64,000 nucleotides of DNA, from contig OU744725.1 of assembly GCA_916613615.1 (NCBI GenBank), positions 7,236,708-7,300,707 on the forward strand. Reading direction: 5' to 3'. Under the pieces are notes generated by a model that saw only the letters and a list, made by a program, of their open reading frames with translations, did not search any database and was not told the origin of the DNA. Positions 9,415 through 49,316 of this stretch are shown piece by piece. Positions within the stretch are counted from its first letter, which is position 1, and each line of letters opens with the position of its first letter. The stretch is from Steromphala cineraria. Taxonomy: Eukaryota; Mollusca; Gastropoda; Trochida; Trochidae. The position numbers and the translations under genes were made by a program.

Positions 9415-10004
9415 TAGGGATGTCACGATACACCAGTTCATCAATGCATAGCTTGGTACAGTTCACGATACACCAGTTCATCAATGCTTGGTACAGTTCA
9501 CGATACACCAGTTCATCAATGCATAGCGTGGTACAGTTCATGATACACCAGTTCATCAATGCATAGCGTGGTACAGTTAACGATACACCAGTTCATCAAT
9601 GCATAGCGTGGTACAGTTCACGATACACCAGGTCATCAATGCATAGCGTGGTACAGTTCACGATACAATACACAATACAGTAACTGTATCATGATACAAA
9701 TTTAGTGAATATCGTTTACTTTTCTGGTGAATATTATTAAATTTTTGTCTAAAAATGAAATCAAGAAATCAAGAGTTTGTTAAAATCCTTGTCAAGATAC
9801 ATTTAATACAGTATTAAATTACTTTATCATGAAGAAGTTGTCTTATTTTTGTGTTTAAATGTTGGTTATTCAGAAAATTTGTTAGAAATATTGAATTTAG
9901 ATCCTTGAATGTTAATTTCACTGTCATAACATCGCATTTATTGTATCGCGATATATATTGTATCCTGATACGTATCTTATCGCACCTGTATCAAGACATC
10001 CCTA
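9415..10004. mobile_element. hAT-like MITE (590 bp) with 8-bp target duplication
   Basis: The element starts TAGGGATGTCACGATACA and ends with the imperfect inverse, 'tgtatcaagacatcccta'. The flanks are GTCTCTAT (9407-9414) and GTCTTTAT (10005-10012), an 8-bp duplication with one mismatch. TAGGGATG-type termini plus an 8-bp duplication are characteristic of hAT elements. The interior has a tandem array and copies of 'gatac' that make it foldable. It has no transposase. Confidence 0.85.
9425..9665. repeat. Tandem repeat inside the hAT MITE, about 6 copies of 40 bp
   Basis: The unit contains 'cacgatacaccagttcat' followed by 'caatgcatagcgtggtacag'. One copy has a short deletion of 'catag'. The unit begins with the terminal 'cacgataca' motif of the host MITE, so the array probably arose by expansion of its subterminal sequence. 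Confidence 0.9.
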
Positions 10005-23000: not shown

Positions 23001-26000
23001 ATGTCTACACAAAATTATTTTCTTTCTTTGAAATTAAAATTCTTGCATGTCTCATACAGCAGTATGTTCACATTGAAATCATCATGATACATTTATCATT
23101 TTAAGTGAAATGAAATAAATTCTCATTTTTTAAAAATGCTTAAAATCTTTAACAAACTGTTATGAATTTTAACTGCAATCAACAATTACATTTTAACATC
23201 GTTCAATCAAGCGGTTAGGTCTGCTGAACATTCTACCACTCCTGGTGTTGTACTGTCTGTACTCATTATCTCGAGTGGTAACTTCACTGTCATTGCATTC
23301 ATCAGGACACTATGTGTCCTCATCAGACAAGACAAGCTGGTTAGTCTTATCACTATCACACAGGGATTCATCTTGTGCAAATCTCACTTTTCTTGGAGTT
23401 CCAAGCATATCCCTCAAATGGCGCCTGTTTCTTCTAAGCACTTTGCCATTTGGGGTTTCCACCATATAGGATCTGGGCTCATCACACTTAGCCGATATCC
23501 TACCGGGTACCCATCTCCTACTGTCTTGATCTTGAGTCAAGACTTTCTGACCAACATCTAGAGTAGGCAAATCCTTAATCCCAGTTCTGTCATGGTAGTA
23601 CTTCTGGGACTGTTGTCTAACATGCAGTCTACTCATGATAGCATCCTTCTGTGGGTGATTATTCCCAATCGACACTGGTAGGTTGCCTTGTAACTTTCGA
23701 CCATCCAGGATCTCACCAGGTGATGGAATAGCACTATCAATAGGAGTTGTTCTAAGACTGAGCAAAGCAAGATCAGGGTCAGTTCTGGACTGTTTCGCCT
23801 TGGTAAGACACTGCTTTATGGTTTGCACTGCTCTCTCCACAAAGCCGTTACTTTGTGGATAACGAGGACTGGAAGTTACATGATCAAAACACCACTCCTC
23901 AGCAAAACGTCTAAATTCTTCACAATCAAATTGTCTGCCATTGTCACTGATTACCTTGCTGGGTATCCCCTGTTCTCCAAACAGCTGTTTACAGTGATCT
24001 ATGACAGCTCTACTTGTACACTGTCCATGTATCCTTCGCACAAAGAATGATTTAGAGTAGTAATCAGTTATCAACAGATTTTCACAACCATCGAAGTGAA
24101 ATAGATCCATTGCGACAGTCTGCCATGGTCTCTGTGGAAAATCGTGAGGGAGTAAAGACTCATGTGGCTGTGACTTCTGATTCTCTTGACATATCTCACA
24201 GTTCGCTAACAGCTCTTCGATCTCCTTGTTAATACCTGGCCAGTAAATGCATGACTTTGCCCTGAGCTGACACTTGACCACACCTTGATGGCCAACGTGT
24301 AATTGCTGAAGTGCCTCACGTCTCATCGGAGGTGGTATCATTACCCTGTCACCTTTCAGCAACAAACCATCCTCTACTGTCAGCTCATGTCGACACGACC
24401 AGAATGGACGTACTATCTTTCGCACTTGTTTTGCATCCTCCGGCCATCCAGATACAATGATAGTCTTCAAAGCACTGAATGTTTCGTCTTTTTCAGTTTC
24501 CTTGCGAATCATCTCAAGTTTTTCACTCGAGAACTGGACATGGTGAATAGTTCTGTCAATGCTGATGGTCGGACCTGGAGATGGATTCTGCCTAGAGAGC
24601 ATGTCTGAGAGAGTCATCTCTTTACTAGGTTTGTATTTGATTTCCAAATCATATTGCTGGAGTTGGAGCATCATCCTCTGGAGTCGAGGGGGAGTATTTG
24701 CTAGATTCTTGTGCTGGATGCTCTCCAGTGGTTTATGATCCGATTCCACAACAAAATGGCTGCCGAACACATAGATATGAAATCTCTTGCATCCAAACAC
24801 AACAGCAAGAAGCTCACGTTCGATATTTGCATACCGCTTTTCTGTGTCGGTTAGTGCCTTGCTTGCATATGCAATGGGATATCCATCTTGCATTATCACA
24901 GCACCCAGTCCTTTCAGTGAGGCGTCAACTTGCACAACTGTAGGTTTCTTTGGGTTGAAGTACTTCAGAGTACCATCGACACAAATCATAGTTTTGAGCT
25001 TGTCAAATGAAGCCTGATGTGATTCAGTCCACTGCCATTCAATGCCTTTGTGAGTCAATACCCTCAATGGTTCTGTGAAATCAGCCAAGTTGGGTATGAA
25101 TGATGACATGTATTGTATCATACCGAGGAACCGCTTTAGCTCCACAGTGTTTGCAGGCGGTGGTAGGTTTTGGATCTCCTGTATCTTCTCAGGATCAGGG
25201 TGTACACCTTGGGCGTCATAGTAGTTCCCAAAGAACTTGATTTTCTCCTTTCTGATCTCACACTTGTCAATGTTGAAGATCAAACCATACCTTGCAGCAA
25301 CTTTCATGAGATGATGCAGATTTCTGTCATGTTCCTCAACAGTCTTTCCATACACAGCTGCGTCATCACTGATGCCAAGTGTTCCTGGGCATTGTTCAAG
25401 TATCATATCCATCTTTTCCTGGAAGATGTCCTGTGATATTCTCAAACCGAAAGGTAATCTGAGGAATCGATACCTCCCAAAAGGTGTATTGAAAGTTGTA
25501 AGGAGACTGGAACTGTCGTCAAGAGTTATACTCCAATAGCCGTGTCTGGCGTCTAACTTACTGAACACTGTTGCTTCACTGAACTTGTGAGTAATTTCTT
25601 CCAGTGTCGGTGTTTTGTGATAAGTCCTTTTAATGGAACGGTTTAAGTCACTCGGATCAAGACACACCCTCAGTTTTCCACTTTCCTTTCTACTAAATGC
25701 AAGTGACGACACCCAATCTGTAGGCTCTGTTACCTTGGTTATGACGTTGATTGACTCCATCCTATCAAGTTCTGATTTCAACTCGTCCCTCAGTTGAATT
25801 GGATACTTTCGTACTGGATGTATCACTGGTTGGGCGTCTTCCTTCAGAGTTATGTGACACTTTCCAGGGAATTGACCGATGCCCTCAAATCTGTCAGGGT
25901 ATATTTTCTGTAGAGTTTCTTTATTAGGAATAGGAACTGATTTCTCTACACTGTGAACTGATGTAGTGGGACAGTTTGGGGTGATAAGATTCAGAGCAAG

Positions 26001-28785
26001 TGTTGAAGGGAGACCAAGTAGAATAGGACCTGGTGCATCAGCGACAAAGAACTCTGTGTCCAGCCAGTTACCATCAAATCCACATGGTAATCTAACACTA
26101 CCATACTGGGGAATCTCAGTCCCGTTATATGCACTCAATTTGACATGTTGAGCTCTTGTAGTTCCCACTTTGGGAAAACCCGATGCATCTAGGTGCTCTG
26201 GAAACATTCTTCTGTACACACGAAGTGGTAAGAGATTACCTTGAGCCCCTGTATCTACCTTGACTCTCATGGTGTGATATCCTTGACGGTTATTTACCTT
26301 GACATCCAAATTCACTTTTAATTCATCAACATTGTCCCCTGATATCTCATCAATAAATGTGACAGTTTCAAAATGGAAATGCTCAAAATCTTCTCTCACA
26401 AAGTCAATATCATGTTGCTTTTGAGAATGATGTGCTGGTTGTTTCCTATGATGAGAACAACTTGACGTATCTGCACTTCGACGCGACTGACGGCCGTGAC
26501 TCTTTGACCTAGACTGATGACGATACTTTGACCTATTATGCTTGTGCTGTCACCCGGTCTTCCTCTGCCCTGCTGACACATTTCCTGCCAGTGCCCAAGT
26601 TTGCCACACATCTTACACTTACTGTTCACTGCTGGGCATTTGTTTCTTGATGTAAAGGAATGCTTGGTTCCACAAAACCAACACACACGTTGAATCTCAT
26701 CTGTATGTAAAACCTTGCCATCTAGATTTTTAAACTGTGACATATGGTTACTGCTTGCTTCATGTCGCCTTCCAATATCAACCGCTTCTTGGAGAGTTAA
26801 CTTTTCATCACGTCCTAACAGTGTTTTCTGCACTTCTGGATATGGCACACCAGCTATAAGAACTTCAATTATCCTCTTCTCTGATGCAGCATTGTCTTTG
26901 AATAAACACTTCATGGCTTTGGCCTTACACCTAGTGACAAAGTCATCAATAGTCTCACTATCTTTCTGTTTGTATCGAAGAAATTCAAGTCTATGAATTC
27001 TAAAATTCTCAGAAGGCTCTATTTGTGACGAAAATTTAGCCCATAAATGTTTTGGATCTTTTAATTCTTCATCAGAAAGATTCCAAGTGTTGAACATACG
27101 AAGACCTTCCTTCCCAGACCATAAAATAATGTAGCTATGCTGATTTTTTGGTTCTATGGCTTTAATCTTGAACCAAAGTTCACTTGTTTGTTTAAACTCT
27201 TTAAATGCCTGACCCCTGTCTGGGTGTGACCAGTCCATGCAAGGTGACGGTACTGACTCTGCCATGGTTATTTTATGTGCGCTTCAATTTGACATGTGAT
27301 TCATGATGCGTGTGTAGAAAGTCATTGTTGTCTACTATCTAAATCAATGTTACGAGATAATGTTAATTCGTTCAATGTCACCAAGTTATTTTCCTATATT
27401 GAGAAGTTTCGTTACAAAATATCAACTTCAACAGTCACAGTGACATTCACAGATCCAGTCCACATGGCGCGTAGTCGAAACAGCACGCCGACTGGGAGAG
27501 AGATACAGTCCGAGACACGCTACTCAGTTATAAGGCATGATTATGTCGGTAATGCGTAGGATTGTTCAAACCGCTGCCACCATGTAATATTCTTCATGCA
27601 CAACTGACTCGGCTTCTTCATGATAACTTTTATTCCAAAGTTATTTAGGAATGACAACAAACATGGCGTCGGCCACAACTTCCAAGTTACAACTAAAAAC
27701 GTAACTGTAAAAGATACGGATTATAATTCATAATCTTATAAAACGGAATGTGATCATATTACAATACCCATCTCTCACAATTTTAGATAAAAAAGAAGAT
27801 TATTTCAAATACATTTTTCAACATTTTTTCAAACTGAACATACCGCTCCCCCATGAGGTTGAGAAAGAACGGCTCCCCCTCATTTATTTGATGGCAGTCG
27901 TCAAGTTCCTCCAGACACACAGCGATTGTCTCCCCTGTTGTTGAGTCGTGTGGCACCCCCCATCTCAGGTCGCAGTCTATGATGTGGATCTTCCTCTCCG
28001 ACCCCCATTCACGCAGCTCGGGAAACACCTGAACATAAGTTAAAATAAACTTCATTGTTCAAGCATTTCAGCATAAATAGGTTTAATTCTTATTATTTTA
28101 AATATATCATAAATCATTTGAAAAATCATACTAGAAATCACATACCTTCTTAACAAGGATTTCTCTTTCACTGAAGAAGTCTGAGAATGTTGAAGACACA
28201 AATATCCTGGCAGTTCTCCAGCCCTGGATTCCTGGAGCTCTTGGAGGGGGTGGGCTCCAGTCCTGGTACCGGCTCTCCTCGGCATCGATCTGGCGCCAAC
28301 ATGACAACACAGGGCTGTCTTCACTCAGCGTCTGGAAGGAGAAATGAATGGAGTAATTATCCTAAGTGATGTCTGCATTGGATACAAGGTATAATCCCAG
28401 AATTCAAAGGGCAACATTCCAACATGGGGTTGGCATCACTCTATGTCATGTGAAAAACTGCATTGGTGGAAATTTTCGGAAACATTGATTCACATTACCA
28501 TTCTGAAAAACATATACATGTAGGTAAATATATGGCAGTTACAACTTTGGAGAAAACGGTCGGTTTGGAGAGACTGGCACATAGTGAGAAGTGCATTTGT
28601 GGAATTTTTAGATACATATACAGTTAGAGAGCAAGTAAAAACTTTTGCCAATAGTTTTTAAGGTACAACTACAAGATTAAAGGGAGAAACTAATGATTAT
28701 CTGAATGTCATAATCACTTAATAAGTCCAACCTTTTCTATACTTTCAGGTCCATTTTCCTGCTGTGATATGAACTTCTTATACAT
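10963..28785 (-). CDS. DUF4062-NACHT STAND NTPase (nephrocystin-3/TTC41/TEP1-like), multi-exon
   Basis: Exons on the minus strand, 5' to 3': 28785-28732, 28331-28146, 28028-27844, 22448-22338, 21198-21081, 20772-20677, 19053-18936, 18281-18159, 17356-17336, 16858-16743, 16093-15982, 15584-15472, 15113-14910, 14539-14327, 13972-13778, 13019-12871, 11017-10963. All phases join, giving about 722 residues. The N-terminal part has the DUF4062 signature (RIFVSSTFSDFF, then DLRWGVP and LMGERYGW). The NACHT domain follows: Walker A GWGKTS near residues 360-365, Walker B IIIDAVNE near 444-451, then the helical region. STAND NTPases of this type act as nucleotide-switched scaffolds, and nephrocystin-3 is ciliary, but the exact orthologue cannot be fixed. 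The expected C-terminal TPR or WD repeats are not seen. The first exon, a possible upstream exon and the C-terminus are the least certain parts. A gypsy element occupies the intron between 27844 and 22448. Confidence 0.82.
11383..11522. repeat. Imperfect palindrome (about 60-bp arms)
   Basis: The left arm ('attattacacgaggaagtgt' onward, through 'gtcatatgac') is inverted in the right arm ('gtcatatggcacacttcc' to 'gagtgtaataat'). The centre is 'cccgagcgagagcgaggg'. No transposase is present. It is probably a foldback MITE inside the last NACHT-gene intron. Confidence 0.75.
12627..12884. repeat. Duplicated segment including an exon 3' end and splice donor
   Basis: About 60 bp at 12627-12690 ('ttacttcctatgcttat' through 'ctctgacctgtccttct') recurs, diverged, at 12803-12884. 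The second copy includes the real donor of the NACHT-gene exon 12871-13019. The first therefore carries a decoy donor and the last 10 or so exon bases without the rest of the exon. Confidence 0.6.
15601..15650. repeat. Short tandem duplication in an intron
   Basis: Two copies of a 27-bp unit ('gttgatatttatta' followed by 'tcccaaatg') lie just 5' (on the minus strand) of the acceptor of exon 15472-15584. This is low-complexity intronic DNA with no inferred function. Confidence 0.6.
16327..16728 (+). mobile_element. TTAA-flanked MITE, copy 3, with a palindromic left end
   Basis: From about 16384 the interior matches copies 2 and 4, and the right end 'tgctactgcccct' abuts TTAA at 16729-16732. 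The left end is rearranged. Sequence from 16327 ('acttacaattatca', then 'aaaatataaaattatcaaa') is the inverse of 16384-16436, producing a hairpin of about 50-bp arms around a remnant of the terminal repeat ('gtgctactccccc'). Confidence 0.75.
17336..17356 (-). CDS. 21-nt microexon of the NACHT gene
   Basis: Flanked by 'caattttag' and 'gtaagt' on the minus strand, this microexon joins 18281-18159 (ending phase 1) to 16858-16743 (needing phase 1). It adds the residues SGDKAHLR across its junctions. Without it the two neighbours would still be in frame (21 nt is seven codons), so it may be alternatively skipped. It lies just upstream of the Walker A segment. Confidence 0.7.
18720..18865. repeat. 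Foldback repeat with a 'GACGAAGG...GAAACG' core
   Basis: The left arm ('aaaagacaactatatggatgac' region) is inverted in the right arm ('gtcatccatatatttgtctt' region). The loop contains 'tcagacgaaggggcatgg' and 'aagaaacgtttcgac'. This core resembles the more complete motif at 47584-47614. It is probably a fragment of a Penelope-like or related retroelement terminal repeat. Confidence 0.5.
20518..20663. repeat. Near-perfect palindrome (about 65-bp arms)
   Basis: The left arm contains 'cccctttcatatcaagttta' and 'gtccctcgtgaaataatttt'. The right arm repeats these inverted, around a small 'tcgccaaggctc' centre flanked by 'gtcac/gtgac'. The arm ends differ slightly (ataactcg versus aagctcgttagatat). 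It is a probable foldback MITE just 3' of the exon at 20677-20772. Confidence 0.8.
22267..22297. repeat. GC-rich hairpin ending a dispersed repeat
   Basis: The run 'ccccccgcaac' pairs with 'gttgcggggg' around a 'ttcgtt' loop. Upstream (about 22020-22260) is a decayed repeat with 'cacaccttcatatgat' occurring twice and a 'ggacggaaggacgc' segment. The arrangement looks like the structured 3' end of a dispersed element. A Helitron-type CTRR terminus does not follow. Confidence 0.6.
22770..22950 (-). repeat. 3' LTR of the gypsy element (181 bp)
   Basis: It is the copy nearest the pol end. It begins 'tgtaatattcttcatg' on the plus strand, ends 'tcatattaca', and matches the other LTR at all but one position by eye. 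TG/CA ends and the flanking ATACC support the boundaries. Confidence 0.95.
22951..22963 (-). promoter_or_regulatory. Polypurine tract of the gypsy element
   Basis: On the minus strand the bases immediately 5' of the 3' LTR read AAAAGAAAGGGGA. A purine run abutting the 3' LTR is the expected primer site for plus-strand cDNA synthesis. Confidence 0.8.
23310..26399 (-). CDS. pol: Gypsy Pol polyprotein (protease, RT, RNase H, integrase)
   Basis: The frame is open for about 1,029 codons. Domains in order: aspartic protease with VDTGAQG near residue 49; reverse transcriptase with LPFG and the catalytic ISDDAAVYG, where many gypsy elements have a YxDD or VDD form; RNase H with VDASLKGLGA; integrase with an HHCC zinc module (HVGHQG, CEICQ) and a DDE core (MDLFH, ISDNGRQF, the PQSNGFVE glutamate). 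The frame has no ATG at its head. The first listed codon is a GTG overlapping the gag stop, and the frame stays open upstream inside gag, so expression by -1 frameshifting from gag is likely. No internal stop is present. The domain order and the fused head suggest an autonomous copy. Confidence 0.95.
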   Translation of the reverse strand: MREDFEHFHFETVTFIDEISGDNVDELKVNLDVKVNNRQGYHTMRVKVDTGAQGNLLPLRVYRRMFPEHLDASGFPKVGTTRAQHVKLSAYNGTEIPQYGSVRLPCGFDGNWLDTEFFVADAPGPILLGLPSTLALNLITPNCPTTSVHSVEKSVPIPNKETLQKIYPDRFEGIGQFPGKCHITLKEDAQPVIHPVRKYPIQLRDELKSELDRMESINVITKVTEPTDWVSSLAFSRKESGKLRVCLDPSDLNRSIKRTYHKTPTLEEITHKFSEATVFSKLDARHGYWSITLDDSSSLLTTFNTPFGRYRFLRLPFGLRISQDIFQEKMDMILEQCPGTLGISDDAAVYGKTVEEHDRNLHHLMKVAARYGLIFNIDKCEIRKEKIKFFGNYYDAQGVHPDPEKIQEIQNLPPPANTVELKRFLGMIQYMSSFIPNLADFTEPLRVLTHKGIEWQWTESHQASFDKLKTMICVDGTLKYFNPKKPTVVQVDASLKGLGAVIMQDGYPIAYASKALTDTEKRYANIERELLAVVFGCKRFHIYVFGSHFVVESDHKPLESIQHKNLANTPPRLQRMMLQLQQYDLEIKYKPSKEMTLSDMLSRQNPSPGPTISIDRTIHHVQFSSEKLEMIRKETEKDETFSALKTIIVSGWPEDAKQVRKIVRPFWSCRHELTVEDGLLLKGDRVMIPPPMRREALQQLHVGHQGVVKCQLRAKSCIYWPGINKEIEELLANCEICQENQKSQPHESLLPHDFPQRPWQTVAMDLFHFDGCENLLITDYYSKSFFVRRIHGQCTSRAVIDHCKQLFGEQGIPSKVISDNGRQFDCEEFRRFAEEWCFDHVTSSPRYPQSNGFVERAVQTIKQCLTKAKQSRTDPDLALLSLRTTPIDSAIPSPGEILDGRKLQGNLPVSIGNNHPQKDAIMSRLHVRQQSQKYYHDRTGIKDLPTLDVGQKVLTQDQDSRRWVPGRISAKCDEPRSYMVETPNGKVLRRNRRHLRDMLGTPRKVRFAQDESLCDSDKTNQLVLSDEDT
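26396..27265 (-). CDS. gag: Gypsy Gag polyprotein with zinc knuckle
   Basis: The 289-residue frame starts at an ATG about 320 nt inside the 5' LTR. The N-terminal region is a retrotransposon gag/capsid type (MDWSHPDRG, WFKIKAI). Near residue 220 is a CCHC knuckle (CKMCGKLGHWQEMC), preceded by another Cys/His-rich stretch (CWFCGTKHSF). The stop TGA overlaps the first codon of the pol frame, which lies at -1. The protein should package the genomic RNA. Confidence 0.93.
   Translation of the reverse strand: MAESVPSPCMDWSHPDRGQAFKEFKQTSELWFKIKAIEPKNQHSYIILWSGKEGLRMFNTWNLSDEELKDPKHLWAKFSSQIEPSENFRIHRLEFLRYKQKDSETIDDFVTRCKAKAMKCLFKDNAASEKRIIEVLIAGVPYPEVQKTLLGRDEKLTLQEAVDIGRRHEASSNHMSQFKNLDGKVLHTDEIQRVCWFCGTKHSFTSRNKCPAVNSKCKMCGKLGHWQEMCQQGRGRPGDSTSIIGQSIVISLGQRVTAVSRVEVQIRQVVLIIGNNQHIILKSNMILTL
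27571..27582 (-). promoter_or_regulatory. Putative primer-binding site of the gypsy element
   Basis: Directly after the 5' LTR on the minus strand the sequence is TGGTGGCAGCGG. A TGG start at this exact position is the usual tRNA-primed site in LTR retrotransposons. The cognate tRNA was not identified. Confidence 0.65.
27583..27763 (-). repeat. 5' LTR of the gypsy element (181 bp)
   Basis: It starts 'tgtaatattcttcatg' and ends 'tcatattaca' on the plus strand, followed by the ATACC duplication at 27764-27768. It should contain the element's promoter, read leftward. No clear TATA box was singled out. Confidence 0.95.
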
Positions 28786-29856: not shown

Positions 29857-32800
29857 ATGTCAGCTTCCATTGGCGAGCGTGTTGTTCCTTGGATCACAAG
29901 GTTGTTTAAGATTTGTTCATCTATGGAACGTAGAGTGGTGTTTCCTTTTAGGCTAAATTCACTATCATTACGTCATACTGTCATTTCTAGCCCTTGTATA
30001 ATTATCGTGTCTTGTTTTCACCCATAACATTCATTCAGAGACGACTAGACCGGAGTCGAGATGCGGTGGATTCGTACCCAAAACGAATTCGTACCCACAA
30101 ATCTCGGTGAATTCGTACCAAAATCAGGCGGAGGATTCGTCCTCACCTTCTAGTGATAAGCAGTAATACCCTTAGAAATTTTGTTGCTTTGGCAAACACT
30201 TTTTTTTTAGTAAATTCAAGTTATGTTGTTAGTGAAACTTAATTCATTGAACCAATAAAGCTGCTTTTCTTCCATCTTGGTTGACATATAATCATCATGT
30301 ATGGAAATCAATCCCCTCTCTATATTTGATGAGATCAGTGGTGATTCGAGTGCAGCTTCAATAAGCTGTTCAAACCCCTCTGATTCCAAAACCAGGTACC
30401 GTACCATGTTGAGCTGAGTAGATAAAGGTACAAAGTAACATAATTAAATGGAATGATGTGTGTCCATACATGAAGATGTCATGGAATCAGGATGTGGAAG
30501 AAGAAAGACTTCAAAGAATATTTGTTTTCCCGCTTGCATGACATCTTGATTAAAAGACAAACAAAAAGTAATAATCATGTTTTATTTTATTTGCTTTTCT
30601 GTTTTTTTCATCTTAATTTTTATCCTTCCAGAAAAGAGTTTGTTGAAGTATACAGGAAGCTGTTCAGCGAGAGCCTGACACTTCAACAGGAAGCACTTGA
30701 TCATATATCTTTGTGGCAGAGCAGGTAAGTGTTGCATCGAACTATGAAGCTGTGGTCTCACTACTGTTCACTTGTTTATCAAACATGGTAGATTATCATT
30801 ATTGTTTGAAAAATCTTCACATATATAAAAGTGTACTGGCAATGTACCAGAAGTGATTTTGAGACCATCTCCACTGGGATTCGAACCAGGGACCTCCGGG
30901 TTCAGAGTCCTACACTCTACCTGTTCTAGCCAAAGCCAGCAGGAATGCTTATAGCTCACCCTGAGTATTTATAATAAACTGATATTTCTAATCTGTGTCT
31001 CCTTGTGTTGTCAATTTAAAAATGTTTAACCTACCTAACTTAGTATATGCCACTCACCTTTCTCACGAGAGACAGAGGTTTACCGCGAAATTCATCGTGC
31101 TTACCGGATGGGCTGCCCCCAGCCCACTGCGCATGAGCGGGAAACCGGAATCCTGGGTAAAATTCGTGTCATACTTTCTTTCTCTCTCTCCGAGATCGCA
31201 TGTATTTTCGTCTTGCTTATCGATTTCTTCTACGGTTGGTTTTTCTGGTCTTTTTCCTTCCTTTCCTTCCGTCATTATCCTTTTGCTGCCCCCATCGCTT
31301 CTAATGTATCGATGTTTTCCATCTAAGTTCGCTTTCGCGATCTTTTTGCACTTGGTGATTTTGCTATGTCCATGGCTTCTCGCCATGTTACGTACCTTGC
31401 ATGTTCTATTTCACTTGGAAATACCTTCTTGGGGGTCGATCTGCTTGTTTTCGCACCCCCTTCCTCCTTTTCCCTCTTGCTTTTCCATCTACGTGGGCTG
31501 GCTTTGTTGACCTGCTTTTCTGCACGTCCGCATTCCTGCTTACGTCACATCTACCTTTGGTCTGGTCCAAAGACTATGGCTATCTGTTTTTGCCATCTAA
31601 AAACTCGTTTTGCATTTATAATCACTTTCTAAGTATTTCTATGCATTACTTCCATCAGCTTATTTCCCCTTGCATATAAAAATAACAATATATCTTAATA
31701 TATTTTATTTTCTATATCTTTTCATCAAAAAATTTCATAAAATTTTTTCAATCACAAATTAATATATATCATTATCACTTATTCCTATATATTAATTTCA
31801 TATTACATATTCCATCAAATGCATTTCATTTTTGCATTTACTCTTTATTAAATAACCTTGTAATAATAATTTTTTCTCCAAAATTATTCCATTACATCTT
31901 ATTTAATTTTCTACGGCAACCCTTTCGGGACATAAATTTTCCCCTTTTGCTTGCCCCTTAAAGGGGCACGCTCTTAAAAATTTCAAAACCTTTTTATTCA
32001 TTGCCGTAATGTTTGCCCATATTTTGGCATGCTCTGTTTCCTATGTTACAGTCTTCATGCCAGGGTCTTTTGGTGTCCTTTGTCGCTTTTTCTAGTCGGC
32101 CAAGGATCCCCACCTCCGGTTCCCCGACTGTCTCCTCTGGGTCTGCCTAGTGGACGACCGTTGTGACGAGTGCTGCAACCTCTCCCTCCCTGACGTCAAG
32201 AGCTTCGTCTCCGCTCGCAGGAAGAGACTCACCCATATCATATTACTATTACATTCTATTATATATATTTTTAATTACTAATTATAAATATATTAATTTT
32301 TCTTTTCTTAACAAAATATATAATATATAATAAATTCTTTTAAAATTTATATTATATTTTATTCTTATCATTGGCAAGCTTTTTCCTTCTTCCATAATTT
32401 ATTTCCCCATAATTTATAAATTTGGGTATTTATTTTATAACCTTTTTATTAAAATAAAAATAAAAAGCTTGCTTTGCCCACACCCTGGCATGCTCTGCTT
32501 TCTTACAGTTCTCTGCTAGTTTTTTGTGTGGCTTGTTCTGTCCTAGTCGGCAAGGACCCCTCCGGATCCAGTTGCCCCTCGGACCCTTCCTGCCAGGTGT
32601 TCCTTCCTGCCTTGTGGGTTTCCTCAGGTTGCTCCTCCAGGGCTACAGCCTGGACCAGCGCCCTGACCAGTGGCAGAACTAGTACCAGCACTCTGAGTTC
32701 TCTGCACTCTGAGCTACGTCTGAGCAGCTCCTTCACTCTGAGTACTCTGTACTCTGAGCTACGTCTGGACCAGGACCTGCATCGGGACTAACGTCAGGAG

Positions 32801-35800
32801 CAGCGCTTCGTCTGGACCAGCACCTGGACCAGCGCCCTGTCCTCTGTACTCTGACCTACGTCTGAGCAGCTCCTGCACTCTGAGTACTCTGTACTCTGAG
32901 CTACGTCTGAACCTGCACCAGCACCAGCGCCAGGACCAGCGCCAGGACCAGCGCTAGGAGCAGCGCCAGGACCAGCACTAGGAGCAGCGCCAGGACCAGC
33001 ACTAGGAGCAGCGCCAGGACCAGCACTAGGAGCAGCGCCAGGACCAGCACTAGGAGCAGCGCCAGGACCAGCACTAGGACCAGCGCCAGGACCAGCACTA
33101 GGAGCAGCGCCAGGACCAGCACTAGGAGCAGCGCCAGGACCAGCACTAGGAGCAGAGGGTCCAGCGCCTGGGCCAGCACTCTGAGCACTACGTACTCTGA
33201 GCTACGTCCGTCTCATCGTCAGCAGCAGCGTCAGGAGCAGCGCTAGGACCAGTTCCGGCTCTCTAGTTGTCCTGGGACTACACCTAGCCTAGCGCCGGCG
33301 CTTCACCAGCGCCGCCGCCAGTATCCTGTCCTATCCTGGCCTACCCTGGCATATCTTTGAGCTTCATTTTGACCAGCGCCGACGCCACTTCCGGCGCCGG
33401 CGCCAACCATTGGACCAGCACCAGTATCCTGTCCTGTCCTGTCATAGCTTTGAGCTTCACTCTGACCAGCCCCGGCGCCACTTCCGGCGCCGGCGCCAAC
33501 CATTGGACCAGCGCCAGTATCCTGTCCTGTCCTGTCATATCTTGGAGCTTCACTTTGACCAGCGCCGGCGCCACTTCCAGCGCCGCCGCCAACCATTGGA
33601 CCAGCGGCAGTATCCTGTCCAATCCTGTCTTATGCTTGAGCTTCACTTTGACTAGCGCCAGCGCCACTTCCGGCGCCGCCGCCAACCATTGGACCAGCGG
33701 CAGTATCCTGTCCAATCCGGCCTTATTCTTTGAGCTTCACTTTGACCAGCGCCGGCTTCACTTCCGTCGCCGGCGCCAACCATTGGACCAGCGGCAGTAT
33801 CCTGTCCAATCCGGCCTCATTCTTTGAGCTTCACTTTGACCAGCGCCGGCGTCACTTCCGCCGCCGGCGCCAACCATTGGACCAGCGGCAGTATCCTGTC
33901 CAATCCGGCCTTATTCTTTGAGCTTCACTTTGACCAGCGCCGGCGTCACTTCCGGCGTCGGCGCCAACCATTGGACCAGCGGTAGTATCCTGTCCTACCC
34001 TGTCTTATCTTTGAGCTTCACCTTGACCAGCGCCGGCGCCAACCATTGGGCCAGCGCCAGTATCCTGTCCTACCCTGTATCTTCTTTGAGCTTCACCTGG
34101 ACCAGCGCCGGCGCCACTGCCGGCGCCGACGCCAACCATTGGACCAGGGCCATCGTACAGCGTTTCCTGTCCTATCCTGTCTTATCTTTGAGCTTCACCT
34201 AGTGCAGCGCCGGCGCCATTACCGGCACCGGCGCCAACACTTTGGCCAGCGCCAGGACCTAGCTGCGCTGTCTTTGATATTCGCTTAGACCAGCGCCGGC
34301 GCCATCACAGGCGTTGGCGCCAACACTTGGACCTTTGCCAGGGCCTTTTTAGGACTACCGCCTACTCTGACCGGACTCCGAGCTACGCTGTGCCTAGCAG
34401 CAGCGCCACCTCCTTCGTCCTGACCATGACCTTCTGACAACACCAATGCCAGTACTCTGAGTTACTCTGAGTTACGCCTAGACATTCCCAAGCGATAGAG
34501 ATTGGCAAGCTCTTCTGGGACTCCTCACGTCCGCCCAGGCTCTCACGCTCAGAGGACGTCTCTTGATCCGCCCTCTCCAGGTGTTTCTCAGCCCTTACAT
34601 CCGGTCGGACGACACGTCAGTAAGGATCCTCCTGCCAGCGCACCTCAGCCAGTACCTCCGTTGGTGGACACAGCCATCGAACGTCTGCGAAGGCGTCTCT
34701 TTGCTAGAGTTTCAACACATTCAGGAACTGTTCGTGGACGCTTCGCTCCAGGGCTGGGGAGCTCATCTCGGGGATCAGACCGCGTCAGGCATCTGGGCAC
34801 ATCCTCAGACCACCTGGCACTCAAACAACTTGGAGATGCAGGCAGTAATCCTAGCAGTGACGCACTGGCTTCCGGTTCTTCGAGGCAGTCGCCTTCTCCT
34901 GGCCTCAGCCAACTCCACGGTCGTTTGGACAATCAGGAACCAAGGAACGACAGGCTCTCCTCAGCTCCTAGACCAGACCCTCGAGCTCTTCCATCTTCTG
35001 GACGAGAATCAGATATTCATCAGAGCTCAGCACATTCCAGGCTGCAGGAATGTCCTCGTGGACGCCCTGTCCAGACCAGACAAGCCGTCACCAACAGGGT
35101 GGATGCTGAACCCGGAGGCTTTCGCACTCATTGCTGCTCAGGTCCACCGTCCTCTCCTTGACCTGTTCGCCACGAAGCAGAACCATCAGCTCCCAGTGTA
35201 CGTCTCGCCTCTCCCTGATCCAGCAGCTTGGGCCGTCGACGCCATGTCCTTGTCGTGGGAGAATCTGGACGCGTACGCCTTTCCACCTGCGATTCTCCTG
35301 ACCTAAGTCGTCGCCAGGTTCAAGGACACCCTCCTCCTCAGACTGACTTTGGTCGGGCCCTACTGGCCGGCAAGAGGCTGGTTCCCCGATCTTCTTCTTC
35401 TCGTCGAGGAAGATCCGCTCCCTCTTCCACAGTGGCCGAACCTACTCCTTCATCCTCACAGTCGTCAGCTTCAGCCAAAACCCGAGGGGTACGCTCTGCA
35501 CGTATGGACCATATGCAGAGATCCCTCTGTGCCAAGGGCTACTCAGGACGGGTAGCCAGTGCCATCCCCAGAGCCCACAGGCTATCCACGAGGTCGTTAT
35601 ACGATGATTAATGGCTGCCCTTCGAGAACTTCTGCAGAGACCCAGGCCGGGATCCTTTGTCGGTGGACACCCAGTTTGTGGCCAACTTTCTCCTTCGTCG
35701 CAAACGTCACTTGGAGGTTGGGACCTTATCTACGTACCTGTCGGTTTGGGACCTCTACGTCGTCCTCAGGTATCTTCAAGGAGCTCCCTTCGAACCGTTG

Positions 35801-38800
35801 TCAGAGGCCTCTTTCCAAGATCTCAGGAAGACGGCCTTTCTCCTGTCATTTGTTACGCCTGCCAGAGTGAGTGAGCTTCACGCACTGGACGTCACCAAAG
35901 TGCGGTTTGAGCAGTCCAGGAAGGGGTCAGTCCACCTCGGCCTCTTGTGGAACTTCGTTGCCAAGAACCAGCTTCCTTGACAACCTGGCAGGACCGTCAC
36001 CATCCCCTCCCTCTCCAAGATCGTGTTGTCTTCAGATGTGGAGGAAATCTCCTTGTGCCCTGTTTGTGCCCTTCGGGACTACATTGACCGCTCTGCGCCA
36101 AAGAGAGGCACCAGGAAAAGGCTCTTCATCCCCTTTTCACCGTCTGCCAAGGGAGAAGTCACCAGAAACACCCTCTCGCTGTGGCTCCGGACCGTCATTC
36201 TAGCAGCATATGATGCAGCCGGCTTGCCTCACCCCGTCACCAGCAACCCGCTCGAGTTCCGGGCACTTGCTTCCACCATGGCCTTACTTCGCACTTGCTC
36301 AGTCCCAGCCATCATGGAAGGATGTTTCTGGCGTTCTAGGACGGTCTTTGCGTCCGGGTCCTCGCCGTGGAAGACGTGCAAGGACTGCAGACCTTTGGAC
36401 CGTTGGTGGTAGCCTATCAGCTAGCCGTCCCAACGTCTCTTTAGGGTAAGCTGAACGCTTGTCTACTTCGTTACTTCTCACGTTGCACTTGGTGAGTTGT
36501 TGCGTTGTTGGCGACTTCTTGGGGTTCACCGTTTGCTTCTCGGTGCGCTTCTCTGTGCAGTTTGCTTCGGTCGTTCCCTCTCTGGGAGGATGTTTGATGG
36601 ATGCTTTCTGCCTTGATGACTCGTCCTCCCTCCTCCCTACTGTCGGATCAGTGGCATATACTAAGTTAGGTAGGTTAAAAATTTATTAAAATCTAAATAT
36701 TTTAGATATTTAAATACCTACCTAACTTAGTAGGAATTACTCCCGCCCGGCCTCCCCTTCGGACTTCGCTGGATGTCTCCTACAAGACTTCGTTCCAGAA
36801 AGTATGACACGAATTTTACCCAGGATTCCGGTTTCCCGCTCATGCGCAGTGGGCTGGGGGCAGCCCATCCGGTAAGCACGATGAATTTCGCGGTAAACCT
36901 CTGTCTCTCGTGAGAAAGGTGAGTGGCATATACTAAGTTAGGTAGGTATTTAAATATCTAAAATATTTAGATTTTAATAATTTTGCTTTTTGTATTTGCA
37001 GTAATGTTTTTATTATCTAATTCCTGTTAAATGCAGGTGTGAGGCAAATGTACCACTAGCAGTAACATCGTCTGCAGATCTGATTGCAGCCCAATTGGAA
37101 CATCGTCTCCATGGCAACAGTTCCATATCACATTCTAAAGATTCTCGACTCAGACATGGATACACTCTCGCCCTTATCAGGTTTGATTACAATGTTGAAA
37201 TATTTACTTAATCCTTGTTCTCTTTGAAGTCATTAACAATATAATTTTACTAGTTGATCCTAAAGAGGATCCTAGGCAATTTTACTTTGATTTTTGGCTT
37301 GGTGAACCGTATAAAGATTTTAAGGAGAAGGAACTTTTACCATTGCAATAAATCATGTCCCCCTCAGCCGATCACCATGTAATGACACTGGTTATAGAGT
37401 AATTTTACTGCTTAATGGTGACAATATTGAACAAATGAATCTTGATATCAATTCTACATCAACAAAGAGATACTATACTGTAAATGTGTTTTTGTTTTTT
37501 GCAGATGCTTGTAGTACAAGACAAACTAAGTGTAGGGATAAAGACTCATCTTTGTTTTGCTTTCTTATAGATTTGTGAATTTTATGACGGACCGTTACCA
37601 GAAGGATGGCAATAATGTTGCAATACCTCTTCATCGTATTGGACAAGAGGTAGTATTCATTTCATCATGGACAAAAGTTTTGCTTTAAGAATTTCCAGCT
37701 CCAAAAAGCACAGACATTGGATTTGTAAAAAATTATTTTGTCATTTTGACATGTTTGACTTTCAAGTTTGTTGAAATTTACTCTTTCCATTTGCATGTTT
37801 ATTGTTTAATAATGAAAATGAAATAAAACAGATCTGATACTAACTGTATTCAAACATATATCGCAAATGAAAAGTAGTTAGGGCTTGGAGATCTTCAATG
37901 ATTCTTATTAGCAAGATGATTCTTGATCATACAGATGAAAAATATATAACTGTAAAAACGATTTTGTTTGCATTTTCATTTGTACATGTATAATCAATAT
38001 TAAGAGTACATTATATTATTTTCTGTAAAAGCTTTCACGGTTGAGTTTCTCATATGAATGCAGGGATTGGGAAAAGCAGGGACCAAGGGCTAATTTGCAC
38101 ATTGTATGAAAAAATGGTCCATTAAATATATTTTTGAAGTTAACCATTGATATATGGACAATGGCCTTTTATAATTCAAACAGAGCCTGAAATTTTCACA
38201 TTGTTAAAGATGTCTTTCCAATCCCTGTGAATGCCCTGTGATTCTCTGATCATGTGCCTACCAGATCGGAATCCCCGAGTGGATCGTGAGTCTGAGACAC
38301 GAGGGCACACACCGAGCCCTGCCCACTCTCGAGGTCCTCTCCAGGGGCTGTAACTGGGCTCTCTCCTGGCTCAAGGTATTATCATGCTCATCCTCTCCTA
38401 ATAGAGGTAGCGGGGTTCATAAAGTTCTGATCTATCCTCATTGAAGAAAATCATTCATTGTTTCTTATATATATCCTTTACTATTTGTCTATTACCCAAT
38501 ATGTACACTAAATCTGTGAATGTATTTAATTGCTTATTGACAACTTCTGTGAATAATTTGACGGTTTAATAAGTTATTTATGTCACGTCAGGATGTTGTC
38601 AGGATAAAAGTCCACCTTGTAAATAATTTCACAATTTTAGATTTAAAGTTTAATTCAAAGGTGTAAAAAAAAATTAGTTGTTAGATATGAAAAAAAAAAT
38701 GATGATACATATATTTCAGGAGGGATTCTGGGAAAGACAGTTGCCATCACCAGATGAATTTCAAGGTGAAAGGTCACAATCTAATCCAAGGTCAAGGCCA

Positions 38801-47800: not shown

Positions 47801-49316
47801 CCTACCAATTATCTCCAAACAGATTATATCAAAGTAGTTTCTTATCAAATGACCTTTGCATCCTGTCTCGTGGTACGAACATTACGCTAACTCCACTAAT
47901 CTGAACCCTGGGCTCAGAAGGTAGATTCGCTCTCGCGGCCTGACTTGGGATATAGCCAATATAATCATTTTCTTGTTGAAATTTTATCGAGAAAATTATT
48001 TGATTGGCTATATCCCAATTGGGTCCGCACAAGCAAATCCAGCTTCTGAGCCCAGGGTACAGATTAGTGGAGTTAGCGTAATGAACGTACACTGAGACAG
48101 GATGGTGACCTTTGTAACAAGTAGTGTATATCTTTGTGTCCAGTCCTGTTCACTGGCAGATTTAAACCTTGTTAAGGGCCAACATGTGTAGTGGGGATGC
48201 AGTGCCCTTTTTTGCACCATTTTTAAGGTGTCTTTGGCCTACAATATAGAGCTTTGTCACAGTATCATGGAGAGCTTGCACAGAAGATTTGTCAAATGTT
48301 TCAAAACTTTTATACTTGAGAACATATTTTGGGATACATGTTTATTTCAATATGAGATCATGATTCATCCTTTTATGGCAAAACTGATCAGATATTTATC
48401 TTAAACAGTTCAATATCCTTGATTTAGTCATTGGGTTTGGCCAAATCCTGTAAAATTGTTACATGTATCATTTTTGGAAATGTGACAAGCTGAAGAGAAA
48501 ACCTTTCATATTCTGACAGTAAAATATGGTTGAAATAACATCTCATTATTGACCTCAAAGGAGGGACATCATGGCAACATGTTCCAATTGGTCTTCTACC
48601 ATGGCAAGATGTGGACCAACTGTACAATGACCTTCACCTTGGCTTGAGTGACCAAGGTCAGAGGTCAACTTTAGAGGATGGGGAGCAGCTGTCTGGTGAC
48701 AGTGAACCCATGGAAGTGACAATGTGAGTTTCAACACTTCTATTTGCTCAATTTGATGTTCATGACTGACTTGCATCTATAGATAAATGATTTCTAGAAA
48801 TGCTTGTTTTATTTCAATGATATTCTTAATTTAAGAGATATTTACCTCAATGTAAATCATACAAGAAGTATTCTAATTGTCTTGAATGTCAAAAAGCTGT
48901 TGCTACCATTTTAAAAGGAGTCAAGTACTTGCGTATTCAATTATTTGTTGAATAAATCTCACTCAAATCTCGCTGTTTCCCATCTAAGGCAATGTTGACA
49001 TGGTTAGAAATTTGCAGGATTTAATATTATTGCGTATCTCTGTTTACATTTATGGAAGAATGGTTACAGACAAGGCCAACTCACACCCCTTATTGGGAAG
49101 ATCTCACAGGGTGGTATGAGTGATAGCTTTCATCTGACGTCAACAAAATTGGCTATAGAAATCTCATTCTTTGATAATCATCACATACTCTATTGTTGAT
49201 ATTGCAGAGAGAGAAGACAGCAGGATGAGGACAGTGCCACGGACAGTGCAGTACAGAGGGGCACCTGGTCTCAACACCAGATCCATATGATGAGGAATAA
49301 AATCACTGTTTTATAG
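29857..49316 (+). CDS. LAS1L: LAS1L, pre-rRNA processing HEPN endonuclease (complete, 15 exons)
   Basis: Exons: 29857-29900, 30632-30724, 37037-37180, 37571-37649, 38265-38375, 38720-38857, 39189-39278, 39730-39827, 44784-44869, 45412-45603, 45945-46059, 46728-46894, 47721-47792, 48561-48723, 49208-49316. They sum to 1,701 nt, exactly 566 residues plus TAG, and every junction keeps phase. Las1 cleaves ITS2 of pre-rRNA in the nucleolus with the Grc3/NOL9 kinase. Family marks are [12 protein letters not shown], the HEPN nuclease motif RHEGTH at residues 131-136, FWRPLLREI, the [13 protein letters not shown] segment, and a terminal WSQHQIH block matching the vertebrate WSQGQLH end. Exon 1 encodes [14 protein letters not shown], matching the family's VVAWLS start. 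Intron 2 carries a SINE and a 6-kb DIRS element; intron 8 carries a MITE and LINE ends. Confidence 0.95.
30770..30962 (-). mobile_element. tRNA-derived SINE-like element
   Basis: On the minus strand a tRNA-like head contains 'tggctagaacaggtagag' (A-box-like) and a perfect B box GGTTCGAATCC within 'ccctggttcgaatcccag'. The ends do not form an acceptor stem, so it is not a functional tRNA. A non-tRNA tail follows to about 30770. It lies in LAS1L intron 2, about 60 bp outside the DIRS-A insertion. Confidence 0.65.
31029..31179 (+). repeat. DIRS-A left inverted terminal repeat (151 bp)
   Basis: It runs from 'acctacctaacttagtatat' to 'gtgtcatactttct' and is the exact inverse of 36797-36947. Identity over 151 bp indicates recent replication of this copy or template-driven homogenisation of the ends. 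Confidence 0.95.
31180..32470 (+). other. DIRS-A 5' internal region without a supported gene
   Basis: Most of this interval is AT-rich. GC-richer islands near 32040-32220 and from 32470 resemble each other ('catgctctg', 'tagtcggc(c)aaggatcc/acccc'), a sign of internal duplication. Plus-strand frames such as 30995-31510 run across the terminal repeat and show no gag-like domain. Confidence 0.5.
32905..33165 (+). repeat. 24-bp minisatellite in DIRS-A
   Basis: About ten copies of a 24-bp unit ('ggaccagcactaggagcagc' then 'gcca') stand in tandem with few substitutions. Because 24 is a multiple of three, both strands show long low-complexity frames, for example a Leu/Val/Ala-only frame on the minus strand. 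These are by-products of the repeat. Confidence 0.95.
33355..34330 (+). repeat. 93-bp minisatellite in DIRS-A, about 10 copies
   Basis: Units start at 'tgagcttca' near 33358, 33451, 33544, 33638, 33731, 33824 and 33917, then irregularly. Each contains 'gaccagcgccggcgccac' and 'ccaaccattggaccagcg', and the GC-rich half has overlapping 'cggcgcc' palindromes able to fold. The 93-bp period equals 31 codons, and a plus-strand frame reads a repeated [10 protein letters not shown] motif across several units. The array ends where RT-derived sequence begins (about 34495). Confidence 0.95.
34495..35306 (+). pseudogene. DIRS-A RT C-terminus, RNase H and methyltransferase-like remnant
   Basis: Translation from about 34495 reads [13 protein letters not shown], matching the post-catalytic end of the DIRS-B RT. 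It continues through RNase H ([29 protein letters not shown], a damaged SANSTVVW where DIRS-B has TDNATVVW, and [10 protein letters not shown]). The DIRS methyltransferase-like region follows ([29 protein letters not shown]). The RT palm with its YIDD box is absent, so the element cannot encode its own reverse transcriptase. The active-site Asp in the third RNase H motif appears replaced by Ser. Confidence 0.88.
35228..36440 (+). pseudogene. DIRS-A tyrosine recombinase, inactivated
   Basis: A single reading frame aligns with the DIRS-B recombinase but carries nonsense codons at 35609 (after RSLYDD) and 35979 (after KNQLP). About 45 codons of the core-binding region are missing (after STYLSVWDL). 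A small deletion removes the HYLRDL catalytic-tyrosine segment near 36350. The conserved His also reads PLEFRALAS instead of PHEIRALAS. The first catalytic Arg block ([11 protein letters not shown]) remains. The protein cannot catalyse integration. Confidence 0.88.
36651..36733 (+). repeat. DIRS-A internal complementary region
   Basis: The first half ('gtggcatatactaagttagg' through 'taggttaaa') is the inverse of the left terminus from 31025. The second half ('ttattaaaatctaaatattt' through 'ctacctaacttagta') is the inverse of the right terminus up to 36980. This joined copy of both ends is the DIRS feature thought to template circle closure. Confidence 0.9.
36797..36980 (+). repeat. DIRS-A right inverted terminal repeat plus 33-nt extension
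   Basis: 36797-36947 is the exact inverse of the left repeat. The extra 3' part (36949-36980) reads TTTAAATATCTAAAATAT then TTAGATTTTAATAA. It is missing from the left end and is nearly identical to the extension of the unrelated-ITR element DIRS-B. Confidence 0.93.
39905..40057. mobile_element. Tc1/mariner-like MITE (153 bp, TA duplication)
   Basis: The ends 'cagtagaacacggatata' and 'tatatccgtgttcaactg' are inverted and flanked by TA on both sides. Subterminal 'cgaactc/gagttcg' extends the pairing. It lies in LAS1L intron 8 and has no coding capacity. Confidence 0.8.
41334..41661 (+). pseudogene. LINE reverse-transcriptase C-terminus (3' fragment)
   Basis: The translation ends with the typical post-RT segment of RTE/CR1-type LINEs: [21 protein letters not shown], and a YHYIFHC zinc-knuckle-like block. 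A 3' UTR follows, with 'gaataaagaattgaattg' near 41823. The upstream RT is missing, as in a 5'-truncated LINE. Confidence 0.8.
41880..42640 (-). pseudogene. Second LINE C-terminal fragment, opposite strand, with (CTGT)n tail
   Basis: The minus-strand frame 42640-42038 (200 codons) has the same C-terminal LINE module in diverged form ([28 protein letters not shown]). Its 3' tail runs into a CAGA/TCTG microsatellite at 41888-41914. It faces the fragment at 41334-41661 tail to tail. No RT catalytic domain is present. Confidence 0.8.
42641..44700. other. LAS1L intron 8 sequence without recognisable features
   Basis: The DNA is AT-rich. A GC-richer block near 44360-44495 (containing 'gggccgaaggcc' and 'gcgacggcgggtcccttt') stands out but has no coding or tRNA-like signature that I can support. 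Confidence 0.4.
44716..44760. repeat. (CATC)n microsatellite
   Basis: Eleven or so uninterrupted CATC units lie just before the acceptor of LAS1L exon 9 (44784). The distance is short enough that array length could affect the branch point or pyrimidine tract. Confidence 0.95.
46297..46653 (+). mobile_element. TTAA-flanked MITE, copy 4, complete (357 bp)
   Basis: It lies in LAS1L intron 11, bounded by TTAA (46293-46296 and 46654-46657), with 'aggggcagtagcacg' and 'cgtgctactgcccct' ends. Its length is identical to copy 2 and the interior blocks ('caagccaatcatccatagtc', 'tcgcatggctaaac') are shared. Confidence 0.87.
47584..47614 (+). ncRNA. Hammerhead-ribozyme-like core (possible Penelope-like element remnant)
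   Basis: The core CTGATGA (47584-47590) is followed by 'ggggggc', a GCAA tetraloop, 'gcctccc' (a seven-pair stem with one G-U) and GAAAC (47610-47614). This is the conserved two-strand core of hammerhead ribozymes, widespread in Penelope-like elements. Downstream 'acgtt' and 'aatgt' could form stem III ahead of a UH cleavage site, but I could not find a good stem I. Activity is therefore doubtful. It lies in LAS1L intron 12. Confidence 0.45.
47850..48117. mobile_element. Foldback element with about 75-bp inverted arms
   Basis: The left arm (from 'gacctttgcatcctgtctcg' through 'cgctaactccactaatctg' to 'gggctcagaag') is inverted in the right arm ending 'gagacaggatggtgaccttt'. Inner subarms ('gggatatagccaat', 'attggctatatccc') extend the pairing. 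There is no transposase. It sits in LAS1L intron 13. Confidence 0.8.

Follow-up and report, generated by a model that had tools for sequence, protein, structure and literature searches.

The 64,000-nt stretch of Steromphala cineraria DNA analysed here (the window) contains two DIRS elements, DIRS-A and DIRS-B, which end in the same 32-nt right extension (rE) next to inverted terminal repeats (ITRs) whose bodies cannot be aligned (best blastn E 0.45), and this raises the question of what has kept so short a terminal sequence in common. The DIRS-A rE was located at 36949-36980 on the forward strand, while the DIRS-B rE is the reverse complement of 54830-54861; the two differ at one base out of 32, a T or an A at position 18. 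Each element carries a further internal copy (36683-36714 in DIRS-A and 55124-55155 in DIRS-B), and the copies inside one element agree with each other. A 17-mer probe with up to two mismatches matched only these four places of the window, against 0.11 expected from shuffles, thus confirming the four near-identical copies described by the sequence-only reading, which had started the DIRS-B copy correctly at 54830 and ended it one base too far, at 54862. The next best 32-mer of the window showed 10 mismatches. The 1.27-Gb assembly contained 596 exact copies of the 32-mer with position 18 left free (304 + 292), all retrieved through exact rE and therefore a biased measure of its conservation, and none of the reversed-pattern control. 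The sequence is AT-rich, as a random likeness would require, but the four places against 0.11, the distance to the next best 32-mer and the 596 copies against none leave chance a vanishingly small probability.

DIRS-A (31022-36980, forward strand) is a damaged non-autonomous copy bounded by ITRs that are identical over 151 of 151 positions (31029-31179 on the left and 36797-36947 on the right, forward strand). The tip of the left ITR, TTTAACCTACCT, starts at 31025 and is preceded at 31022-31024 by ATG in place of the ATT of the circle; the terminal AGGTAGGTA of the right ITR adjoins rE, an imperfect predicted hairpin followed by the trinucleotide TTT. The core of the internal complementary region (ICR; 36669-36723, reverse strand) is made up of an AGGTAGG box, the internal rE, the ATT junction and a CCTACC box. 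At the expected place of the gag and reverse transcriptase (RT) coding sequence the element holds a minisatellite block (32684-34255, forward strand), with 12/24-bp and 93-bp units. Remnants of the RNase H/downstream region and of the tyrosine recombinase (34491-36432, forward strand) show stops, a 39-aa deletion and a frameshift; the RT polymerase domain is missing and the recombinase has lost its His and Tyr. Amino acid identity of this damaged copy to DIRS-B amounts to 59% in the RNase H region and 54% in the recombinase. Since the element is damaged and yet its ITRs are identical, the copy was probably made in trans. We rejected it as proof that DIRS-B enzymes move A elements, as L099, an A-family copy whose RT and recombinase regions are open, can explain it without DIRS-B.

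DIRS-B (54830-60922, reverse strand) is apparently intact, with open ORFs and ITRs of 181 nt differing by one mismatch (right, 54862-55042; left, 60735-60915; both on the reverse strand); an earlier figure of 180 bp was thus one short, that of 151 bp for DIRS-A being correct. The left tip CTTTAATACTTACC starts at 60919 and is preceded by ATG (60920-60922), and the terminal rE (reverse strand) is followed by TAT. The ICR core (55113-55172, forward strand) again shows a box (AGGTAAG), rE, the ATT junction and a second box (CTTACC). The coding capacity, all on the reverse strand, comprises a first open ORF, gag-like by position and without Pfam match (58384-60237), an RT/RNase H ORF (56445-58376; Pfam RVT_1 1e-18, RT_RNaseH 5e-9) and a tyrosine recombinase (55396-56619). 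The recombinase has Arg, Lys, His, Arg, Trp and Tyr among the invariant columns of 45 aligned sequences; a PDB profile matched the N-terminal part of Cre, the model was closest to Cre, giving a Cre-like predicted fold, and the Pfam integrase match stayed under the cut-off of that profile. No Pfam methyltransferase match was found in the RT/RNase H ORF at E 0.01, and this family's domain is possibly missed by Pfam.

Elsewhere the window holds a 1029-codon open frame (23310-26399, reverse strand) with RT, RNase H and integrase domains in Pfam, as in Ty3/gypsy pol, and an adjoining open frame without Pfam match (26396-27265, reverse strand). A large fold-back consists of two adjoining 123-nt arms, 82% complementary and without spacer (47859-48104), and two tandem arrays of 40-bp units occur at 1333-1969 and 9423-9667, with about 16 and 6 copies respectively.

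The two elements share their general plan with the DIRS1-like elements of Piednoel et al. (2011; PMC3266345), in the parts of that article drawn on here: inverted ITRs (here 151 and 181 nt), two overlapping ICRs, a right extension, a 3-bp ATT circular junction, an RT/RNase H together with a tyrosine recombinase, and a short conserved sequence present in each ITR and each ICR. The ICR matches both ends with the right extension, and insertion occurs without target-site duplication, as judged from the empty sites of two insertions elsewhere in the genome, also as in those published elements.

The distribution of rE among ITR families was assessed at 62 sites, holding 100 listed places of the 596, which together with the window gave 89 unique copies; a rule based on sequence assigned 55 of these to right ends. 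Among these right ends, all found through exact rE, the ITRs fell into an A-group (40), B (4) and C (3), the others being L059, which matches C over 48 nt, one pair and five singletons, some of them decayed. The tabulation of ITR families at these right ends thus gave at least three families with unalignable ITRs that carry rE. Over the loci L010-L079, 75 of the 95 copies found at up to five mismatches were exact and six more differed at position 18 alone.

We then compared one representative per family, L099 for A, the window element for B and L081, with one stop in its RT, for C. RT identity was 60% for A-B, 71% for A-C and 61% for B-C; the corresponding values were 66%, 76% and 66% for the recombinase and 64%, 70% and 64% for the coding DNA. 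The 150 nt before rE, tips included, returned 54% (A-B), 59% (A-C) and 60% (B-C), against 56, 55 and 57% after shuffling. Because the ITR lies near the shuffled level while coding DNA is still 64-70% identical, rE appears, on these alignments of copies found through rE, to have been kept while the adjacent ITR lost nearly all detectable similarity. Judged by their proteins, A, B and C are related DIRS families and not unrelated ones. The earlier description of the ITRs as unrelated therefore holds for their bodies, which share the tip AGGTARGTA adjoining rE, and was too strong for the families; as for a recent common origin of the ITR families, RT identities of 60-71% make them kin, and their ITRs stay unalignable. 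Among the C-family copies, L080 (3867-6663 in element orientation, the reverse complement of the locus) shows identical 170-nt ITR stretches with much of the interior missing, and is probably another non-autonomous derivative.

More distant elements were obtained by scanning prokaryotic genome records with an RT alignment, which returned eight loci. Five were long relatives (L001-L005), and three weak RT matches (L006, L007 and L008) were excluded from the fold tests. The five have RT regions without stops, each followed by a recombinase, and their RTs are 37-39% identical to that of B; their contigs, filed as bacterial genomes, are probably eukaryotic contamination, and L002 sits in the bin of a Bathymodiolus (mussel) symbiont. 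Their ICRs, that of L005 seen from a contig-edge piece only, bear AGGTAAG toward the right ITR, as in B (A has AGGTAGG), and CTTACC on the opposite side. The tip AGGTAAGT of the B, L001 and L002 ITRs is identical to the 5' splice site consensus. The segment between the boxes has a different sequence in each clade. Since these more distant DIRS carry quite different extensions, rE is, as far as sequence comparison goes, a signature at the level of the clade and not a universal one. Within the group formed by L003, L004 and L005 (79-84% mutual RT identity) the arms are common, with one or two base changes, and the loops differ, so that the A/B pattern is repeated here independently. In IMG/VR, exact and gapped searches for rE and searches with the B RT and B recombinase gave no match, and the RT alignment gave only L009, a 23% match at which no inverted repeats were found; searches of plasmids and of Rfam for a match were also negative.

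These comparisons bear on the simplest account of the shared extension, namely that A, B and C hold rE in common by descent or by a recent exchange of ends, without special constraint. Their kinship, at 60-71% RT identity, is what such an account expects. It is opposed by the ITR next to rE, which is within about 4 points of the shuffled level at 64-70% coding identity, by the A/B similarity, which falls off beyond the boxes, and by the repetition of kept arms in L003, L004 and L005, so that we regard shared history alone as quite improbable.

As the extensions of different clades had no sequence in common, their predicted folding was compared. The segment between the ITR tips folded better than dinucleotide shuffles in all six elements considered, which represent four DIRS clades only, three of them from contaminant contigs (p =.029 for A,.037 for B,.0045 for L001,.0005 for L002,.0005 for L003 and.001 for L004); a Fisher combination over A, L001, L002 and L004 gave about 2e-7. 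The incomplete L005 was also folded (p =.002) and kept outside these counts. Depending on the element, 0 to 5.6% of other windows folded equally well relative to their own shuffles, AT-matched windows in this comparison being few (0 to 19, L002 excepted with 232). A single shape was returned in 6/6 folds, in which a stem of 5-6 bp is followed by a single unpaired base, placed on the arm toward the right ITR, and then by a second stem of 6-8 bp and a loop of 3-9 nt, with unpaired spacers separating the predicted hairpin from the boxes. A strict descriptor of this shape missed L001, L002 and L003, whose other arm has one or two additional bases. A and B taken individually were weak. An inverted-repeat test without gaps returned p =.385 (A) and.77 (B), and when a wider segment was folded p was.097 and.118, respectively; by raw energy, folds as good were shown by 28% of 29 GC-matched windows for A and by 3/5 for B, some of these windows possibly overlapping rE. 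When the six ICR cores were aligned with MAFFT, the arms of L003/L004 fell out of register, and this alignment was left aside. On the predicted folds, the shape of the hairpin and not its sequence would be what is kept between clades, and the fold tests give the same answer for a double-stranded palindrome and for a folded strand. A poly(A) signal was also considered for rE; AATAAA occurs in the A and B ICRs, but it offers no general explanation, because by eye it lies on the other strand in L001/L002 and is absent from L003/L004.

The position of rE relative to the insertion point was defined from the ends of the elements. ICR copies have ATT after rE nearly always, whereas the trinucleotide after rE was NNT in 48 of the 55 right ends (TTT 16, AAT 12, TAT 8, ATT 5, GTT 4, GAT 2, CTT 1). 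Both ends were readable in 27 elements, from 16 of 18 fetched left-end stretches and 11 others, and their left trinucleotide was ATT in 23, ATG in 2, TTT in 1 and AGT in 1. ATT stood on the left with a different right trinucleotide in 21 of them, on both sides in 2 and on neither in 4, and the reversed arrangement, ATT on the right only, did not occur. The sequence diverges right after rE at right ends and directly before ATT at left ends. The left flanks of the 27 elements contained no half of rE, the right ends, found by rE, having it whole.

Unoccupied paralogues were recovered for three of 18 joined flank pairs. Two of these empty sites, in a satellite of about 150 bp, aligned without gaps over 60 columns (60/60 and 59/60 identical), and the third aligned with a single gap, located 12 nt away from the junction; L113/L063, a fourth candidate, was set aside as it gave only a weak gapped match of 74%. 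Insertion thus takes place at a single point, where rE ends on its outer side, and at the two sites the target is neither duplicated nor shortened; since the empty sites are gapless, the left ATT comes from the element and the right trinucleotide pre-existed in the target. The pooled target consensus was AAT-NNNN-WA/WWTT, the slash marking the junction. DIRS insertions or copies in or beside the satellite were seen at L010, L023, L028, L047, L080, L082, L096, L103 and L109, and two A-family insertions lie one base apart within its unit.

In the published model, as given in the parts of PMC3266345 at hand, the 3-bp junction recombines with a genomic trinucleotide identical to it. Here, differently from those DIRS1-like elements, the left trinucleotide is the element's and the right one the target's, and the two are usually unequal, both ends being ATT in 2/27. 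Equal ends are not strictly defining for the family, because 8 of the 28 published elements have unequal ones and two have 2-nt junctions (Table 3 of PMC3266345). In the same table the junction complement stands at both ends in 18 of the 28 elements; it is unlike the end trinucleotide in seven, all right-extended, among which AmDIRS2 has both extensions, and unlike the start in one, which has the left extension only. The published exceptions therefore agree with the polarity observed here, and most published elements, within that table, do not show it. A staggered double-strand exchange would leave a 3-base heteroduplex and, after replication, both polarities, and for this reason the single polarity suggests that the junction is inherited through one strand only, or else that its repair is strongly biased.

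Taken as a whole, the ICR site runs from an AGGTARG box through a short spacer, the predicted hairpin of rE and ATT to the left-ITR tip with the complementary box. We consider it rather likely that, in this DIRS clade, the shared 32-nt rE makes up the outer portion of the recombination site. The Cre-like tyrosine recombinase of the element would recognise boxes and hairpin, recognition would hold rE fixed while the ITR bodies drift, and related families would retain a site that is possibly interchangeable. The earlier suggestion of a shared recognition site thus gained a real feature of families with unalignable ITRs, organised like a recombinase site and with the insertion point on its outer side, and lost in generality, the feature being clade-level and the families kin; that one family's enzymes act on another stays at the level of a hypothesis.

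A role of rE and ICR in reverse transcription would place the hairpin elsewhere, in end templating, circle closure or an RNA signal, for RT or RNA packaging, and leave the recombinase to act on the ITR tips only. The ICR does template the circle junction in the published model, where missing ends are copied from it (PMC5633606 and PMC3266345, in the parts drawn on here), and the two rE copies of each element agree as templating predicts. Templating alone, however, keeps no likeness between families whose ITR bodies have diverged, and we judge this explanation unlikely. The 1985 model of DIRS replication and integration is itself described as not fully proven in the part at hand of a 2017 review (PMC5633606).

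If rE does belong to the recombination site, the way in which it is used has to be considered. It could be a normal double-stranded recombinase site, either a loxP-like inverted-repeat core or arms flanking ATT, with the one-sided junctions arising from biased heteroduplex repair. The enzyme model closest to Cre, the 11-14 paired bases flanking a centre of 3-9 nt, which resemble a lox-like core, and the equal end trinucleotides of most published elements, expected from 3-bp homology (PMC3266345, in the parts at hand), are in favour of it. In Cre-loxP, however, the crossover lies in the central spacer, and DIRS elements are joined at one of the two outer ends of the palindrome; a central crossover predicts half of rE at the left, and none was present in the left flanks read, so that the loxP-like core with central crossover was ruled out by the left ends. 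The extra base on one arm, kept in 6/6 folds, and the 0/27 reversed junctions also speak against a double-stranded site, which we find doubtful overall.

More speculatively, the site would act as a single strand that folds, the product being resolved by replication, as with the attC site of integrons, because shape and not sequence appears to be kept between clades and only one of two expected polarities was seen. Single-stranded DIRS cDNA was reportedly described by Malicki et al. in 2020. In attC, as summarised in the portion of PMC2727003 drawn on here, sequence is conserved in two boundary boxes only, the R''-L'' arm carries the extra-helical bases and recombination is confined to L'-R'. 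The DIRS junction is alike in having boxes at the ends, an unpaired base on one arm and the join on the other (predicted folds, 6/6 elements); the join would fall where the hairpin ends on its outer side, within the unpaired spacer that adjoins the left-ITR box. It differs in its boxes, AGGTARG and CYTACC against the GTT/AAC-bearing R boxes of attC, in the number of extra-helical bases, one against two or three (PMC2727003, same portion), and in belonging to a eukaryotic retrotransposon and not to an integron. The DIRS site is not an attC, but may by analogy work like one. In its full form this reading, which we hold as a tentative possibility, would have DIRS integrate via an attC-like folded single-strand site: the box-spacer-hairpin-ATT-box junction of the cDNA would fold, its shape would be recognised by the Cre-like recombinase, one strand would be joined to WA/WWTT targets at one point and replication would resolve the product.

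In the open-licence literature, including the parts of PMC3266345 drawn on here, we found no description of rE sharing between families or of a conserved rE fold. What is new here is the conserved predicted fold, together with the boxes, an insertion point with polarity and the consensus of the target. A defined candidate site (boxes, hairpin and ATT), together with the insertion point, the target consensus and the polarity rule, makes the integration step of DIRS testable, and an rE common to at least three families turns cross-family mobilisation into a concrete hypothesis. If the folded strand is used, recombination at single-strand sites would extend from bacterial integrons to animal retrotransposons. 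If the attC-like reading is true, integration of these elements would be the counterpart, in a eukaryotic retrotransposon, of the insertion of integron cassettes, and this would explain why rE is free between clades and frozen, and perhaps interchangeable, within one.
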